NCBI GenBank assembly: GCA_003560165.1
Contig: PWJC01000118.1
Span: 1 to 36,584, forward strand
Length of the DNA: 36,584 nucleotides
Direction of reading: 5' to 3'
Source of the DNA: Bacteroidales bacterium
GTDB lineage: Bacteria; Bacteroidota; Bacteroidia; Bacteroidales; UBA7960
Part shown: positions 1-20,456 of the stretch, piece after piece
How the letters are laid out: every line of letters begins with the position of its first letter
Numbering within the stretch: the stretch's first letter is position 1
The notes under the pieces: generated by a model
The model's input: only the letters and a program-made list of their open reading frames with translations
Database searches by the model: none
Told to the model about the DNA's origin: nothing
Translations under genes and position numbers: made by a program

Positions 1-112
1 ACTCTTCAACTCTTCAACTCTTCAACTCTTCAACTCTTCAACTCTTCAACTCTTCAACTCTTCAACTCTTCAACTCTTCAACTCTTCAACTCTTCAACTC
101 TTCAACTCTTCA
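1..112. repeat. Perfect 8-bp tandem repeat, 14 copies
   Basis: The unit ACTCTTCA (AGTTGAAG read on the minus strand, allowing for phase) is repeated 14 times without error and runs off the left edge of the window, so the true array may be longer. It lies about 60 bp beyond the stop codon of the decayed FAH gene, which points leftwards, so a read-through transcript would carry a purine-rich AGTTGAAG array. The period of 8 is not a multiple of 3 and no open frame is credible here. A diverged copy of the same octamer lies at 18964-18995. The repeats have no spacers, so this is not a CRISPR array. Confidence 0.97.
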
Positions 113-133
113 ACTTTCTTCCCTTCGTCCTCT

Positions 134-160
134 GTCTTCCGTCTTCCGTCTTCCGTCTTC
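134..160. repeat. 7-bp tandem repeat next to the octamer array
   Basis: GTCTTCC (GGAAGAC on the minus strand) occurs 3.9 times in tandem between the octamer array and the stop codon of the FAH gene. The flanks at 116-133 and 161-170 are also pyrimidine-rich on the plus strand. The order, reading away from the gene, is 7-mers and then 8-mers. The same order is found downstream of coaD. Confidence 0.93.
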
Positions 161-171
161 TTCCTTCGTTC

Positions 172-780
172 TCACCTCACTGCCACTTTCAGCACTTTTT
201 CCTCCTGAAGGCTGACTTCGAGAATGTCGCCTGCTTCCACAGGCACGTATCCGGGTGTGCCGGTAAACAGGTAATCGCCGATCTTGAGGGTCACGTACCC
301 TGATACCAGGGCGATCAGCTCATCGAAATCCTGCATCATCCGTTTGGATGAGGCTTCGTATTCATGGCGGCTGTTTTTTTTGAGTGAAAAGCAGACCCCC
401 TTCGTTTCATCCAGGCTGCCGGCAGGCACCAGGCGGCTTACGGCGGCCGAACCGTCGAAGGCCACCCCCATTTCCCACGGAAGGCCCTGGCTGATGTGGC
501 GCAGGAGCAGGTCGTGGGCCGTAAAGGTCAGGCCGGCACCGATCTCCTGGTAGTAGGAAGGGGCAAAGCGGCTCTGTATCTGTTTGCCCGGTTTGCAGAT
601 CCTGGCCACCAATGATACGCCGCAGCTGACACTGATGGAAAAGTCTGGGATAAAAAAGGCTTGTCCGGCCTTGATGAGGGCGGTTTCGGGGTTTATAAAA
701 AAACTGGGCTAACTGCTGAAGGCGCCACCTTTACCGGCTTGGGGGCCGGGTACGTTCTCGCCGGTACAGAAGATCTTCAT
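172..780 (-). pseudogene. Decayed fumarylacetoacetate hydrolase (FAH) family gene with internal stop
   Basis: Translating from ATG at 780 gives MKIFCTGEN..., which matches the usual start of Bacteroidota FAH-family (2-hydroxyhepta-2,4-diene-1,7-dioate isomerase-like) proteins. At codon 24 (709-711) there is a TAG, in a place where relatives often have Glu (GAG), after which the frame continues unbroken to 172 (PSFFINPETALI..., FTAHDLL, GLPWE, FTGTPGY). Intact proteins of this type have about 203 residues, as here (202 codons plus the final stop). The family's metal-binding ExE is replaced by G-V-S in SCGVSLVAR, the Asp of the DFTARD-type motif is Thr, and the N-terminal GRNYxxH-type motif reads GENVPGP. 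The gene lies 6 bp after the exonuclease stop, so it was probably its operon partner. I infer a pseudogene or a catalytically dead paralog. A sequencing error could explain the TAG but not the lost ligands. Confidence 0.8.
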
Positions 781-786
781 GGCGGG

Positions 787-1617
787 TTACTGATCTTTGA
801 AGATGATATTGCCCTTGTCGAAACCGCGGAGGATGATGGACTGGATCAGGTTTTTGGTCGAAAGCGGAAAATCTGCCTTCATCATCCAGTCAAAATACTG
901 GGGTTCCTTCTTGAATACCTCCTCCACGACCTTACCTTTGTATTTTCCGAATTTAAAAACCTCCCTGCCTTGTTTGTCGTAGCCTATATGACCAACCAGG
1001 TCGGCATTGCGGTGGTTGTAGGAAAAATCGTGCAGGGCCTGGACGTCGTTTTTTATGGGGCCTTCAAGCCGGCCTTCCCGGTCTTCGTAATCCACTCCCT
1101 GGTAGCGTTCTATCTGTGAGAGCAAAATCTCGTAGGTGGCCCTGGTGTCGGCCTCGGCTTCATGAGCCCCCACCAGGTCCTTCCCGCAGTAAAACTTGTA
1201 TGCGGCTCTCAGGGTGCGGGGCTCCATCTTGTGAAAGATGTTCTGCACGTCGATCAGCCGGCGTTTTCTGATGTCGAACTGGATGCCGCACCTGAGGAAT
1301 TCCTCGATCAGCATCGGGATGTCGAACTTGTTGGAATTGTAGCCTGCCAGGTCGCAATGCTGAAGAAACTGTTCGAGGGAGGGGGCCAGCTGGGCAAAGG
1401 TCGGTGCATCGGCCACGTCAAGGTTGGAGATGCCGTGGATGGCGGTGACTTCCGCCGGAATGGGGATGGTAGGGTTCACCCTTTTTGTCAGAGATTCGTT
1501 GGTGCCGTCGGGTATTACCTTGTAGATGCTGATCTCTACGATGCGGTCTCTTACCACATTTACTCCCGTGGTTTCCAGGTCGAAAAAGGCCAGGGGGCGA
1601 ACAAGTTTCAATTGCAT
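787..1617 (-). CDS. DnaQ-family 3'-5' exonuclease (DEDDh)
   Basis: This 276-residue protein has the RNase T/DnaQ exonuclease fold. Exo I is FFDLETTG (D13, E15), Exo II is the GYNSNKFD region (D99) and Exo III is HEAEAD (H152, D157), so all acidic and histidine residues of a DEDDh enzyme are present. Residues from about 215 (FKFGKYKGKVVEEV...FDWM) form a small C-terminal domain resembling that seen in ExoX-like proteins. It is expected to remove nucleotides from DNA 3' ends in the cytoplasm; whether it proofreads with polymerase III or works in repair cannot be told from sequence. Start ATG at 1617. The stop is 6 bp before the decayed FAH gene. Confidence 0.9.
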   Translation of the reverse strand: MQLKLVRPLAFFDLETTGVNVVRDRIVEISIYKVIPDGTNESLTKRVNPTIPIPAEVTAIHGISNLDVADAPTFAQLAPSLEQFLQHCDLAGYNSNKFDIPMLIEEFLRCGIQFDIRKRRLIDVQNIFHKMEPRTLRAAYKFYCGKDLVGAHEAEADTRATYEILLSQIERYQGVDYEDREGRLEGPIKNDVQALHDFSYNHRNADLVGHIGYDKQGREVFKFGKYKGKVVEEVFKKEPQYFDWMMKADFPLSTKNLIQSIILRGFDKGNIIFKDQ

Positions 1618-17883: not shown

Positions 17884-18407
17884 TTGGCGGAAAATTTGCC
17901 AGACGCTTGTTGCATCCACCGCCCGGCTTGCCCGTGCGACCAACCACCGACAAAGCCAAGGAGGGATTGTTCAATGTGTTGAACAATCATTTCGATTTTG
18001 AGTCGGTCCGGGTACTGGATCTGTTTGCGGGTACCGGGAATCTCTCGTTTGAATTTGCATCCAGGGGGGCCGTTGAGGTACTGGCCATTGAACAGCAAGC
18101 CCGCTGCGTGGAGTTTATCCGTCATACGGCCAGGCGTTTCGGCATGGATAACCTCCGGGTGGTCAGGGCCGATGCGTTTCGTTTCTTGGGTCAGTGTTCA
18201 ACGGATTTCGAACTTATTTTTGCCGACCCCCCCTACGATAGTCCCGGCATCGACCGCATACCCTCACTGGTTTACGCAAACGGATTGCTGGCCAAAGGCG
18301 GGTGGTTGATTGTTGAGCACACCGCCGGGGAGCAGTTCGCAAACCATCCGGCCTTCATTCAATTAAGAAAATACGGAAGGGTACATTTCAGTATCTTTGA
18401 GGCATAA
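17874..18407 (+). CDS. rsmD: 16S rRNA (guanine(966)-N(2))-methyltransferase RsmD
   Basis: This 177-residue SAM-dependent enzyme methylates a guanine of 16S rRNA during 30S assembly. It has the N-terminal IIGGKFARRLL and RPTTDKAKEGLFN (22-34) signature, the SAM-binding DLFAGTGNLSFE (49-60) and the catalytic DPPY (117-120). Start ATG at 17874 lies inside the end of the DUF3822 gene. coaD follows after 19 bp. The rsmD-coaD pairing is common in bacteria. Confidence 0.95.
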   Translation: MRIIGGKFARRLLHPPPGLPVRPTTDKAKEGLFNVLNNHFDFESVRVLDLFAGTGNLSFEFASRGAVEVLAIEQQARCVEFIRHTARRFGMDNLRVVRADAFRFLGQCSTDFELIFADPPYDSPGIDRIPSLVYANGLLAKGGWLIVEHTAGEQFANHPAFIQLRKYGRVHFSIFEA

Positions 18408-18426
18408 AGGTTTGAAAAAAACGCTT

Positions 18427-18903
18427 ATGGAAAAGATCGCATTGTTCCCCGGTTCGTTTGATCCCATTACCCGGGGTCATGAATCAATTGTCAAGAGGGC
18501 ACTGCCCTTGTTTGACAAGATCATCGTGGCAATTGGGGTCAACGACCAGAAAAAAAGCTTTTTCCCCCTGCAGCAGCGCCTGGGGTGGATCAACAAGGTG
18601 TTTCGGGACTTTCCGGAAGTGGAGGTCATTACCTATGAGGGCCTCACGGTCGACTTGTGCAAAAAGCTCAATGCCATGTATATTCTGCGTGGACTGCGGA
18701 CGTCGGCCGATTTCGAATTCGAGCGGAGCATCGGTCAAATGAACAAAAAGATGCTGCCGGGGGTCGAAACGGTGTTTTTTCTGACCACGCCCGAATACAC
18801 GGCCCTGAATTCCTATATCGTACGCGATATCATCCGGAACGGGGGCGATGCTTCCCCCTTTATTCCCGAAGGCATTGATCTGTCTGCTTTTAATGGACAA
18901 TAA
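18427..18903 (+). CDS. coaD: Phosphopantetheine adenylyltransferase
   Basis: This 158-residue enzyme makes dephospho-CoA from 4'-phosphopantetheine and ATP, the fourth step of coenzyme A synthesis. The nucleotidyltransferase motif ALFPGSFDPITRGHESI (residues 5-21, with GxxDPIxxGH) and the C-terminal SYIVRDIIRNGG match the family. The frame extends 10 codons upstream to 18397, overlapping rsmD; ATG 18427 fits family length. It is the last gene of the operon, and a composite repeat begins about 40 bp past its stop. Confidence 0.95.
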   Translation: MEKIALFPGSFDPITRGHESIVKRALPLFDKIIVAIGVNDQKKSFFPLQQRLGWINKVFRDFPEVEVITYEGLTVDLCKKLNAMYILRGLRTSADFEFERSIGQMNKKMLPGVETVFFLTTPEYTALNSYIVRDIIRNGGDASPFIPEGIDLSAFNGQ

Positions 18904-18945
18904 CATCCTGGCCGACCGGGCGTGATGAATTGGTTGACAGGTAAT

Positions 18946-19043
18946 GGAAGGTGGAAGGAAGAGAGTTAAAGAGTTGAAAAGTTAAAAAGTTGAAAATCCT
19001 GATATTTAAACTTTTAAACCCTTAAACCCTTAAACCCTTAAAC
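18946..19043. repeat. Composite 7-mer/8-mer repeat downstream of coaD
   Basis: Three parts in order: two purine 7-mers GGAAGGT-GGAAGGA (18946-18959); four octamers of consensus AGTTRAAR (18964-18995); and, after a 10-bp spacer, octamers TTAAACTT then TTAAACCC three times plus TTAAAC (19006-19043). The third block read on the minus strand is GGGTTTAA, so the two octamer blocks form an imperfect inverted repeat that could fold into a long AT-rich hairpin. The 7-mer-then-AGTTRAAR order is the same as at 1-160, with the same orientation relative to the preceding gene. No coding frame is plausible. Confidence 0.88.
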
Positions 19044-19055
19044 GCTCCGCTCATT

Positions 19056-20456
19056 ATGCGCAAACTGATCTTCATCTTGTTATTGTTTCTTTTTTCCGGC
19101 TATTGTGCCGCCGGGAGTGAGGTGGTCATTCGCGGGGTTTTCCCCGGGGGTGAAGGCCGGGAGGTCCGTTTGATGACCTACGAAGACCTGGTGAGTAACC
19201 GGGCTTCCGAACTGGATGCCTCCCGGATTGGCGAGGATGCTTTCTTTGAATTCCGTTTTGAACCGGATGCGCCCCGGCTGTTGTTTCTTCGTGTCATGCG
19301 CAGCAACCATTATTTTTTTGTGGAACCGGGCGGCCGGTATGCAGCCAATTTTGTCGATCTGCCTTCCCTGCCTGCGATCGGACCCGCTGCCCGGCAATTC
19401 GAACTGAAACTGAGCAGCCAGGTGACGGGACCCTACGAATTGAATGAGCTGATATTCCGCCTGGAACAGATGGTGGCCGGCTACCTGGAATCGAATGTGG
19501 CAGGCCGGGTCAGGACTAGCCACCAGAGGTCGCTGGAAGCATTCCGCCTGGAGGCAGAGGAGGCATTCCGCGAAGTTGAGCACCCCTTCTTTCGCGACCA
19601 CCTCGATTATTATTTTGCCTCGCTCCAACGCAGTCTGAACACGGCACGCTTTCATACACTCTTTGAAAAATATATAGAGCCCCGGCCAATCGCCTATCAG
19701 CATCCAATGGCGATGGATTTTATGGGCAGCATGTTCGGCAAATATTTGCTGGGAGGGGCTTCACCCACCGGCCTGGATGAGCTGAGGCGTGCCATAAACC
19801 GCTATGGCAGCCATCGCGTCGTGATGGATCTGCTTGCAGCAGACAGCCTGCTCGCCAACGAAAGGCTGCGTGAGCTGGTCATGCTGATGGGTGTCAAAGG
19901 CATGTTGTCCGAACGCGAGTTCGATAAAATGCAGTTGCTCGGCCTGCTCGAAGAAACGGCTGTGGTGAGCCCCGTGGCCGAACACCGGCTTATTGCCCGG
20001 AATCTGGTGTCGGGGTACAGACAGATGCGACCGGGGTTTCCCCCGCCTGCGCTGACACTTCCCGATCAGCAGGGCCGGATGCTTGACCTGGAAGATTTTA
20101 GCGGAAGCTATGTTTACCTGTTTTTCTGGGACGGAGACTGCCCGGTATCCCAGGCCGACATAGCGCCCATGCAAGCCCTTGCGGCGATGGCAACCGACAG
20201 CCTTCAGCTGCTCGGAGTTCTTACAGGAGACCGGCCCCCGTCTTCGGGACCCCTTTCCGACCCGTCCGGTCTGGGCTTTCCCTTGCTGTATGCAGGAGAC
20301 GATCACCGGCTGCTCGACAGTTTCCGGCTGCGGTCCACCCCCCAGTACATCCTCATTGGCCCCGATGGCAATGTTCTTTTCTATCCTTTTGCCTCTCCCT
20401 CCGGGGGAGCTGCCCTCCAACTTCCTGGATTGACCGGGCGTGGCGACGACCGATAA
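19056..20456 (+). CDS. Secreted thioredoxin-fold (TlpA-like) protein with CxxS
   Basis: This 466-residue protein has a signal peptide (1 to about 20, RKLIFILLLFLFSGYCAAG). The Cys in it has Tyr at -1, so a lipobox is not convincing. The middle (25-320) resembles the DUF4369-type and helical regions that precede TlpA domains in Bacteroidota. A redoxin/thioredoxin fold starts near 330 (PGFPPPALTLPDQQGRMLDL) with the active-site region FFWDGDCPVSQ. Here C362 is present but the second Cys of CxxC is Ser (S365), so it should not act as an ordinary dithiol reductase. RSTPQYILIGPDG supplies the cis-Pro loop. Substrate unknown. It converges with the NUDIX gene, stops 12 bp apart. Confidence 0.85.
   Translation: MRKLIFILLLFLFSGYCAAGSEVVIRGVFPGGEGREVRLMTYEDLVSNRASELDASRIGEDAFFEFRFEPDAPRLLFLRVMRSNHYFFVEPGGRYAANFVDLPSLPAIGPAARQFELKLSSQVTGPYELNELIFRLEQMVAGYLESNVAGRVRTSHQRSLEAFRLEAEEAFREVEHPFFRDHLDYYFASLQRSLNTARFHTLFEKYIEPRPIAYQHPMAMDFMGSMFGKYLLGGASPTGLDELRRAINRYGSHRVVMDLLAADSLLANERLRELVMLMGVKGMLSEREFDKMQLLGLLEETAVVSPVAEHRLIARNLVSGYRQMRPGFPPPALTLPDQQGRMLDLEDFSGSYVYLFFWDGDCPVSQADIAPMQALAAMATDSLQLLGVLTGDRPPSSGPLSDPSGLGFPLLYAGDDHRLLDSFRLRSTPQYILIGPDGNVLFYPFASPSGGAALQLPGLTGRGDDR

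Follow-up and report, generated by a model that had tools for sequence, protein, structure and literature searches.

Ordered composites of 7- and 8-nucleotide tandem repeats between the genes of a Bacteroidales draft genome

Two repeat elements behind two genes

Two genes on one Bacteroidales contig, encoding a FAA hydrolase and CoaD, are each followed by purine-rich 7-mers and then by octamers. Are these two places copies of one dispersed element, how is that element set relative to genes, and what put it there? The window analysed here is the whole of contig C32 (36,584 bp), part of a 2,708,710-bp draft in 184 contigs. A sequence-only reading of the window had described both loci and proposed that they belong to one family, and its description of the repeats was accurate (Table 1). 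On the minus strand, 7-mers and then 14 perfect octamers follow the FAA-hydrolase stop, whilst on the plus strand two 7-mers and four octamers follow that of coaD. The octamers start 56 and 60 bp past the respective stop codons, in agreement with the roughly 57–60 bp first given.

Two features of the window had been missed. Position 1 is a contig end lying inside the octamer array, which is truncated there, so that its 14.4 copies are the visible part only. In addition, a third array, of GTTTAARR octamers facing the other way, occupies most of the remaining gap between coaD and the next gene. Most of the sequence between the coaD stop and the next start is therefore repeat. No copy of the core sequence described below was seen beside this third array. 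Allowing up to three mismatches, AGTTRAARAGTTRAAR matched the window 20 times, whereas 100 shuffles averaged 2.09 matches and never exceeded 7. The 7-mer pattern matched 45 times at the same tolerance (shuffle mean 32.3, largest 44), and the two-unit 7-mer at 18946 is, taken alone, weak evidence.

The N-terminus of the FAA-hydrolase gene (172–790, minus strand) looks decayed or divergent. An in-frame stop interrupts the part resembling congener G013, and the open frame has 178 aa compared with 200–236 aa in congeners.

Table 1 Features of the two repeat elements and their neighbouring genes in the window; module letters are those used in the text.
Feature	Position	Strand	Remarks
B module, AGTTGAAG octamers, 14.4 perfect copies (100% match)	1–115	−	Open at contig edge
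Junction AAGGGAAGAA between 7-mers and octamers	116–125	−	Related junction strings counted genome-wide
A module, GGAAGAC-type 7-mers, 5.0 copies, 89% match	126–160	−	
Purine-rich GAACGAAGGAA, directly past the stop codon	161–171	−	Resembles one E-module unit, GAACGAAN
FAA hydrolase C-terminal domain gene, upstream	172–612	−	PF01557, 5.3e-14; stop 172–174 precedes the element
coaD, pantetheine-phosphate adenylyltransferase, upstream	18427–18903	+	TIGR01510, above cut-off; stop ends at 18903
A module, two 7-mers GGAAGGT GGAAGGA (GGAAGGTGGAAGGA)	18946–18959	+	
B module, four octamers AGTTRAAR	18964–18995	+	
D module, about 4.8 octamers GTTTAARR	19005–19043	−	Opposite direction (TTAAACCC on the plus strand)
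AhpC/TSA family gene, downstream, co-directional	19056–20456	+	Called start 12 bp past the D array

Load, anatomy and orientation in the source genome

The two loci belong to one dispersed family. Across the genome the degenerate 16-mer RGTTRAARRGTTRAAR matched 495 times in the forward and 361 times in the reverse direction, each overlapping frame of an array counting as a match. The reversed pattern gave 171 and 139, but it is an imperfect control owing to the mirror symmetry of AAGTTGAA. The same symmetry affects the reversed-sequence control, in which 5,749 array bases were counted compared with 14,991 in the real sequence. GTTTAARRGTTTAARR matched 51 and 72 times (control, 0), and the strict bipartite pattern gave 15 matches at 10 places, against none in its reversed control. 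Tandem repeats were tabulated with TRF in 1,067,388 bases (39%) of the 2.71 Mb draft, a sample partly picked for its matches, and genes were called with a home-made codon-usage caller. The 500 TRF rows, which may overlap, included 139 of period 7 and 154 of period 8. Just two of these 293 rows fell inside called genes, so almost all are intergenic.

The element is larger than the two repeats first noticed, with further 7-mers, a reversed octamer array and a core. Read in gene direction, the 35 gaps with arrays displayed a preferred order that runs from the stop codon through modules A and B, with a junction between them, to either C or D plus core; the placing of 7-mers ahead of octamers is supported by these gaps. 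Module A, after the stop codon, is composed of the 7-mers GGAAGRY, GGTAGTA or GGTAGAA, and is joined by a conserved GGAAGAAGAA-type junction (e.g. GGTAGGAAGAAGAA) to module B, the octamers AGTTGAAR. Module C consists of AGCCAAN 7-mers. Its alternative, D, consists of TTAAACYT octamers (GTTTAARR reversed) and leads into a 70-bp core with the consensus AAACCTGTTTGGGGTTTTCCnnGGTTTTAACTGTCGCACTGCCTGCAGGCAGTnGATAAA. Elements can also contain the words E (GAACGAAN), F (AGTCGAAN) and H (GAGTGAT). The scoring used seven word groups, of which four are 8-mers, and several of the groups occur per element. The order is not universal, as a few elements are wholly reversed or mixed (e.g. loci L163 and L180).

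The strings joining the modules recur. Eleven strings, chosen after inspecting the elements, were counted in the 1.07 Mb sample, and nine of them occurred 5–27 times whilst two occurred once each. The junction GGTAGGAAGAAGAA had 27 copies versus 0.008 expected at equal base frequencies, and GAACGAAAAAGTTGAA, AGAAAGAAGTAAGTT and AGTTTAGAAGACGGAAGAC had 10, 8 and 5, respectively. None of these four occurred in 232 kb of sequence from congener G013, where ten of the eleven were missing overall and TTAAACCTGTT was found once. Slippage alone would not be expected to account for the recurring junctions. A query with one copy of the core gave 40 scored matches in the genome (58 candidates), equating to at least 40 copies, and no match in 20 congeners; being multi-copy and lineage-restricted, the core has the combination looked for in a miniature transposable element (MITE). 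D-type octamers preceded 38 of 44 core copies in the loci sampled, where overlapping contig ends may count twice. The core pointed towards a downstream same-strand gene in 31 cases and the opposite way in 8 (P = 0.0003), with no gene seen in 5, and the downstream start lay within 121 bp of the core in 25 of the 31. Within it is an imperfect CACTGCC-loop-GGCAGTG repeat that varies among copies.

Orientation relative to genes shows a bias with exceptions. Between co-directional genes, the A 7-mers lay on the sense strand 19:3 (P = 0.0009) and the B octamers 14:2 (P = 0.004), counts that are not fully independent because several arrays can share one gap. No significant bias was found for C (6:3, P = 0.51), and the reversed octamers of D were antisense in 10 cases and sense in 3 (P = 0.09). 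Adding contig-edge cases gave 51 same-strand, 18 opposite and 2 divergent for B, and 54, 17 and 3 for A. Among the 44 A arrays with an upstream same-strand gene, 32 start no more than 27 bp past its stop codon. B starts 10 to 195 bp past such a stop (32 cases), so the 57–60 bp spacing seen twice in the window does not hold as a fixed distance. Twelve arrays begin from 30 bp before to 3 bp after the stop codon, and in several genes the array itself encodes the final residues (...KVEGGR or ...RRKEGR) together with the stop.

Closeness to the stop codon is one aspect of arrays that tend to fill the whole gap. Of 31 co-directional gaps, 19 have arrays that approach the stop to 30 bp or less, and 13 have arrays that approach the start as closely. 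In a test of the insertion point, relative position along the gap showed no significant departure from uniform and was not significantly nearer the stop than the start (P = 0.10). For gaps of at least 60 nt, period-7/8 arrays occurred in 30 of 212 co-directional versus 7 of 105 divergent gaps (P = 0.06), a rarity in divergent gaps that is only suggestive, and in 0 of 19 convergent gaps, each of which has two gene 3′ ends. The orientation preference and the closeness to gene 3′ ends between co-directional genes stood, but a purely 3′-end feature was not supported. Neither of the outcomes that the sequence-only reading had named as contrary, namely copies with no preferred orientation or distance and a family of only two loci, was encountered.

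Occurrence in relatives and other phyla

Amongst the relatives, AGTTGAARAGTTGAAR was absent from 20 congeners, 4 family genomes and 16 order genomes, and three looser GTTNAARN units in tandem were found in 5 of 21 genus genomes (this one included), with different words. At the coaD 3′ flank, 19 congeners had no such octamers in the ~230 nt inspected, the stop being uncertain in loci L285 and L296. Past the FAA-hydrolase gene, none of these arrays was present in the stretch inspected at 19 loci from 18 congener genomes; two of the FAA-hydrolase loci hold other repeats and four carry 7/8-mer arrays elsewhere. The gap between a GNAT-domain and a SpoIID-domain gene holds an A-B-C element in the source genome, and in two of the three congeners having the gene it holds TAGTAAT/TAAGTAG 7-mers that run from the stop codon. 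Adjacent orthologous pairs common to the samples of the source genome and G013 numbered 31. Arrays occurred in one pair in the source genome only, in one pair in G013 only (a divergent gap) and in no pair in both. In 138 kb of congener loci there were 15 period-7/8 rows, with words like GTCGAAAG, AAAAGCC and AAAGTTTA. These comparisons of loci and gene pairs indicate that words are common to the genus whilst loci and copy numbers turn over.

Several other repeats were seen in the congeners. Telomere-like ACTCTAA/ACCCTAA 7-mers lie directly at the coaD stop in G009 (L290) and G001 (L300), where, judged by eye, the array sequence is consistent with the last residues ahead of the stop (NPKP or NSKL), such that the array seems to encode the end of CoaD. 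Past the FAA-hydrolase gene there are GGCGCGCAGCGCCGACC-like hairpins and CTTCCAGCTTGCGAAGCAA repeats in L319 and L302 (G014 and G010). A 6-bp repeat, CCTCAA, reaches ~45 copies at a contig edge of G013 (L141, 13704–13975).

Beyond the order, the octamer array recurs patchily in many phyla. Three tandem AGTTGAAR units were found in at least 98 stretches of a species-level genome collection, several of them from one genome, and in 0 of 394 other genomes of a phylum sample. The matches listed came mostly from metagenome bins and included Bacteroidetes, Verrucomicrobia, Aminicenantes, Kiritimatiellae, KSB1, WOR-3, Planctomycetales, Geobacter and a Lokiarchaeon. Periods 7 and 8 dominated again at these listed loci, where other period-7/8 rows numbered 51 in the 60 kb within 300 bp of the octamers versus 115 in 652 kb elsewhere, arrays overlapping the octamers being excluded. 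A crude length-based ORF caller put 28 of 105 of these arrays inside ORFs, and these were left out of the distance lists. Among the remaining listed matches, octamers started −22 to +26 bp from an upstream same-strand stop in 32 of 44 cases, a closeness that is in part built in because the array holds TGA in every frame, and ended in the same range from the 3′ end of an opposing gene in 2 of 34. The stop lay inside the array in 10 of the 32 stop-proximal cases. Co-directional orientation amongst the listed matches was 25:13, a weak signal, with a further 16 arrays in convergent gaps, 8 in divergent gaps and 15 at locus edges.

AGTTGAAR arrays faced their own reverse complement within tens of bases in L232, L258, L262 and L265, and perfect 14-copy arrays occurred in L245 (AGTTGAAA, uncultured Geobacter) and L274 (AGTTGAAG). 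Virus-borne spread was considered and rejected, as an exact-pattern scan of viral contigs gave one stretch only.

Origin of the composites and comparison with known repeats

We give about an even chance to an explanation in which the repeats form a non-coding, non-autonomous, ordered composite element shaped by copying, slippage and orientation-dependent survival. Composites would spread by copying between loci, through recombination, gene conversion or a transposition-like step, after which slippage would add units to their modules and remove them again. Repeat units of 7–8 nt exceed what ordinary mismatch repair can handle. Copies would survive between co-directional genes in the orientation that leaves read-through RNA rich in purines and antisense RNA rich in pyrimidines, because the targets of Rho are C/T-rich transcripts and purine-rich ones escape it. 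The element would in effect be a permissive one-way spacer, whether by tolerance or by selection. This survival step draws on a 2026 study in B. subtilis, where Rho was shown to terminate C/T-rich RNA and to leave purine-rich RNA alone (PMC13323073), and on gap composition, which fits the proposal. In co-directional gaps of at least 100 nt, the antisense strand was the more pyrimidine-rich in 25 of 29 gaps with arrays versus 34 of 102 without (P = 3e-8), a difference that does not in itself demonstrate the Rho step since the repeat words alone dictate this composition and coding strands are only 51.4% purine in this genome. Counted against the explanation are that neither a transposase nor a target duplication nor an exact empty site was shown, that two of the eleven strings are single-copy and that arrays were not significantly nearer the stop than the start. 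A more general proposal, that a 7-/8-nt vocabulary is repeatedly written sense-wise behind stop codons across phyla by a transcription-linked process and kept as one-way Rho gates, appears improbable; such gates, if real, would be silent to read-through and hostile to antisense transcription. A mutator state through loss of MutS was rejected, as MutS_I matches were found in the source genome and in 20 of 20 congeners.

In-place slippage could in principle act with no copying between loci, chance seeds at gene ends growing into similar words by mutational bias. The exact octamer array in unrelated phyla, the different 7-mers (ACCCTAA, ACTCTAA) straight after coaD in two congeners and the perfection of the left array over all its visible copies each point this way, but module-joining strings and a 70-bp core at dozens of loci are not expected from it, and we think it rather unlikely. 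Another candidate is a MITE-like element mobilised by a transposase acting in trans, its arrays being internal minisatellites (compare BrickBuilt of Porphyromonas gingivalis). The multi-copy core with its short inverted repeat has no match in the congeners, mostly keeps its orientation and usually follows D-type octamers, all as such an element would have it. However, inspection by eye of 16 core copies and their flanks picked out neither terminal inverted repeats nor target duplications, and many composites, those of the A-B-C type, have no core. The Y1 transposase family of REP/RAYT systems (PF01797, TnpA-REP) also gave 0 matches in the source genome (95% complete), compared with 5 positives among 14 control genomes, so REP/RAYT membership was rejected and the MITE-like origin is a doubtful candidate. 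The contig ends raise the further question of an assembly artefact, since 34 of 109 ends in the sequential contigs C1–C57 lie within arrays versus 19 of 2967 interior 150-bp tiles. An artefact is scarcely credible given that the 35 array gaps lie inside contigs, between two called genes, and that the same kind of array occurs in congeners and other genomes. Rather, arrays seem to break the assembly than to result from it, and such elements are therefore probably under-reported in metagenome assemblies.

Two functional accounts were also weighed. Were the elements selected terminators or insulators, hairpins built from the B and reversed-D arms would stop transcription arriving from either side, and predicted RNA folds give moderate support for this in some B-D elements. 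Three of nine folded strands clearly beat their shuffles (L099, z = −3.1; L159, z = −2.8; window 18940–19056 minus, z = −2.7), and several other genomes have AGTTGAAG-type arrays with their own complement behind them. The other six strands ranged from z = −1.6 to 0.8 (L175, 0.83; L078, 0.11 and −0.36; window 1–150 minus, −0.14; coaD plus, −1.2; L070, −1.6), and L175, the one A-B-C element folded, had no stable RNA fold. A terminator scan of 17900–20000, covering the coaD element as the single element scanned, gave six terminator-like sites, none of them in the element. Moreover, the coaD pair of one congener looks operonic by eye because its gap is ~6 bp. Terminators or insulators are thus an unlikely general role. 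Rfam models scored above gathering only for two tRNAs, both in L078, across eight element-bearing sources (138,936 bases). The arrays might instead act as a translational fail-safe, as GGTAGTA and AGTTGAAR hold sense-strand stops (TAG or TGA), a unit length that is not a multiple of three would put these in every frame past the gene, and in several genes the array does supply the stop. Yet the units GGAAGAC, AGCCAAN and GAACGAA contain no stop and the arrays run far beyond need, which makes this role very improbable.

Heptamer arrays between bacterial genes have been known for a long time. The short tandemly repeated repetitive sequences (STRR) of cyanobacteria are dispersed intergenic tandem 7-mers of unknown function, with one predominant 7-nt word per family. 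The source genome resembles them in its many dispersed intergenic arrays of a ~7-nt unit (293 of 500 TRF rows), and differs in having 8-mers too, several ordered words per element and a non-tandem core. With no single predominant word, its arrays are a variant of the STRR type and not a member of it. In the literature cited here, intergenic heptamer arrays have no accepted role. As described in the cited passages, the GGGNATC heptamers of Xanthomonas and Nostoc are likewise stop-proximal and on the coding strand, and form G-quadruplexes with a preference for four units (PMC4692102), whereas here several words without GGG make up ordered composites with a core, and G-tracts of three or more are absent from the main units GGAAGAC, GGTAGTA, AGTTGAAR and AGCCAAN. 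TAACTGA heptamers, reported from Beggiatoaceae, Cyanobacteria and five Bacteroidetes, share the patchy occurrence across phyla, the mixtures of heptamers, the contigs that end in repeats and the short, repeat-free gaps of some relatives; the Beggiatoa repeats lie mostly just upstream of start codons, and the passages cited describe neither 8-mers nor a core (PMC4679880).

Other repeats offer further parallels in the passages cited. BrickBuilt of P. gingivalis is multi-copy and intergenic, its tandem repeats being flanked by a leader and a tail, but has a 23-nt unit and inverted-repeat ends where the elements here have 7–8-nt units and no recognised ends (PMC4596501). The multi-copy elements of Geobacter metallireducens also combine tandem 7- and 8-mers with facing octamer pairs, although in fixed small repeat numbers, with the words GTTGCTYN and TWGTTGAY and as proposed regulator sites (PMC2700814). 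The tandem repeats of Borgs are A-enriched on the coding strand, recent and fast-evolving, but those are archaeal extrachromosomal elements whose repeats lie within reading frames too (PMC9879509). Bacteroidota are named amongst the phyla of high repeat density in a passage that makes no mention of hepta- or octanucleotides (PMC12699852). Since the matches listed from the open-licence literature on bacterial heptamer and octamer repeats held no description of an ordered 7/8-mer composite, we regard it as a new form of a known kind of repeat. Finally, the source genome combines a high array load, a readable order and a marked strand bias with congeners that are free of arrays at the same gene pairs, and the origin of such repeats, their preference for 7–8 nt and a Rho-linked explanation of their orientation are therefore directly testable.
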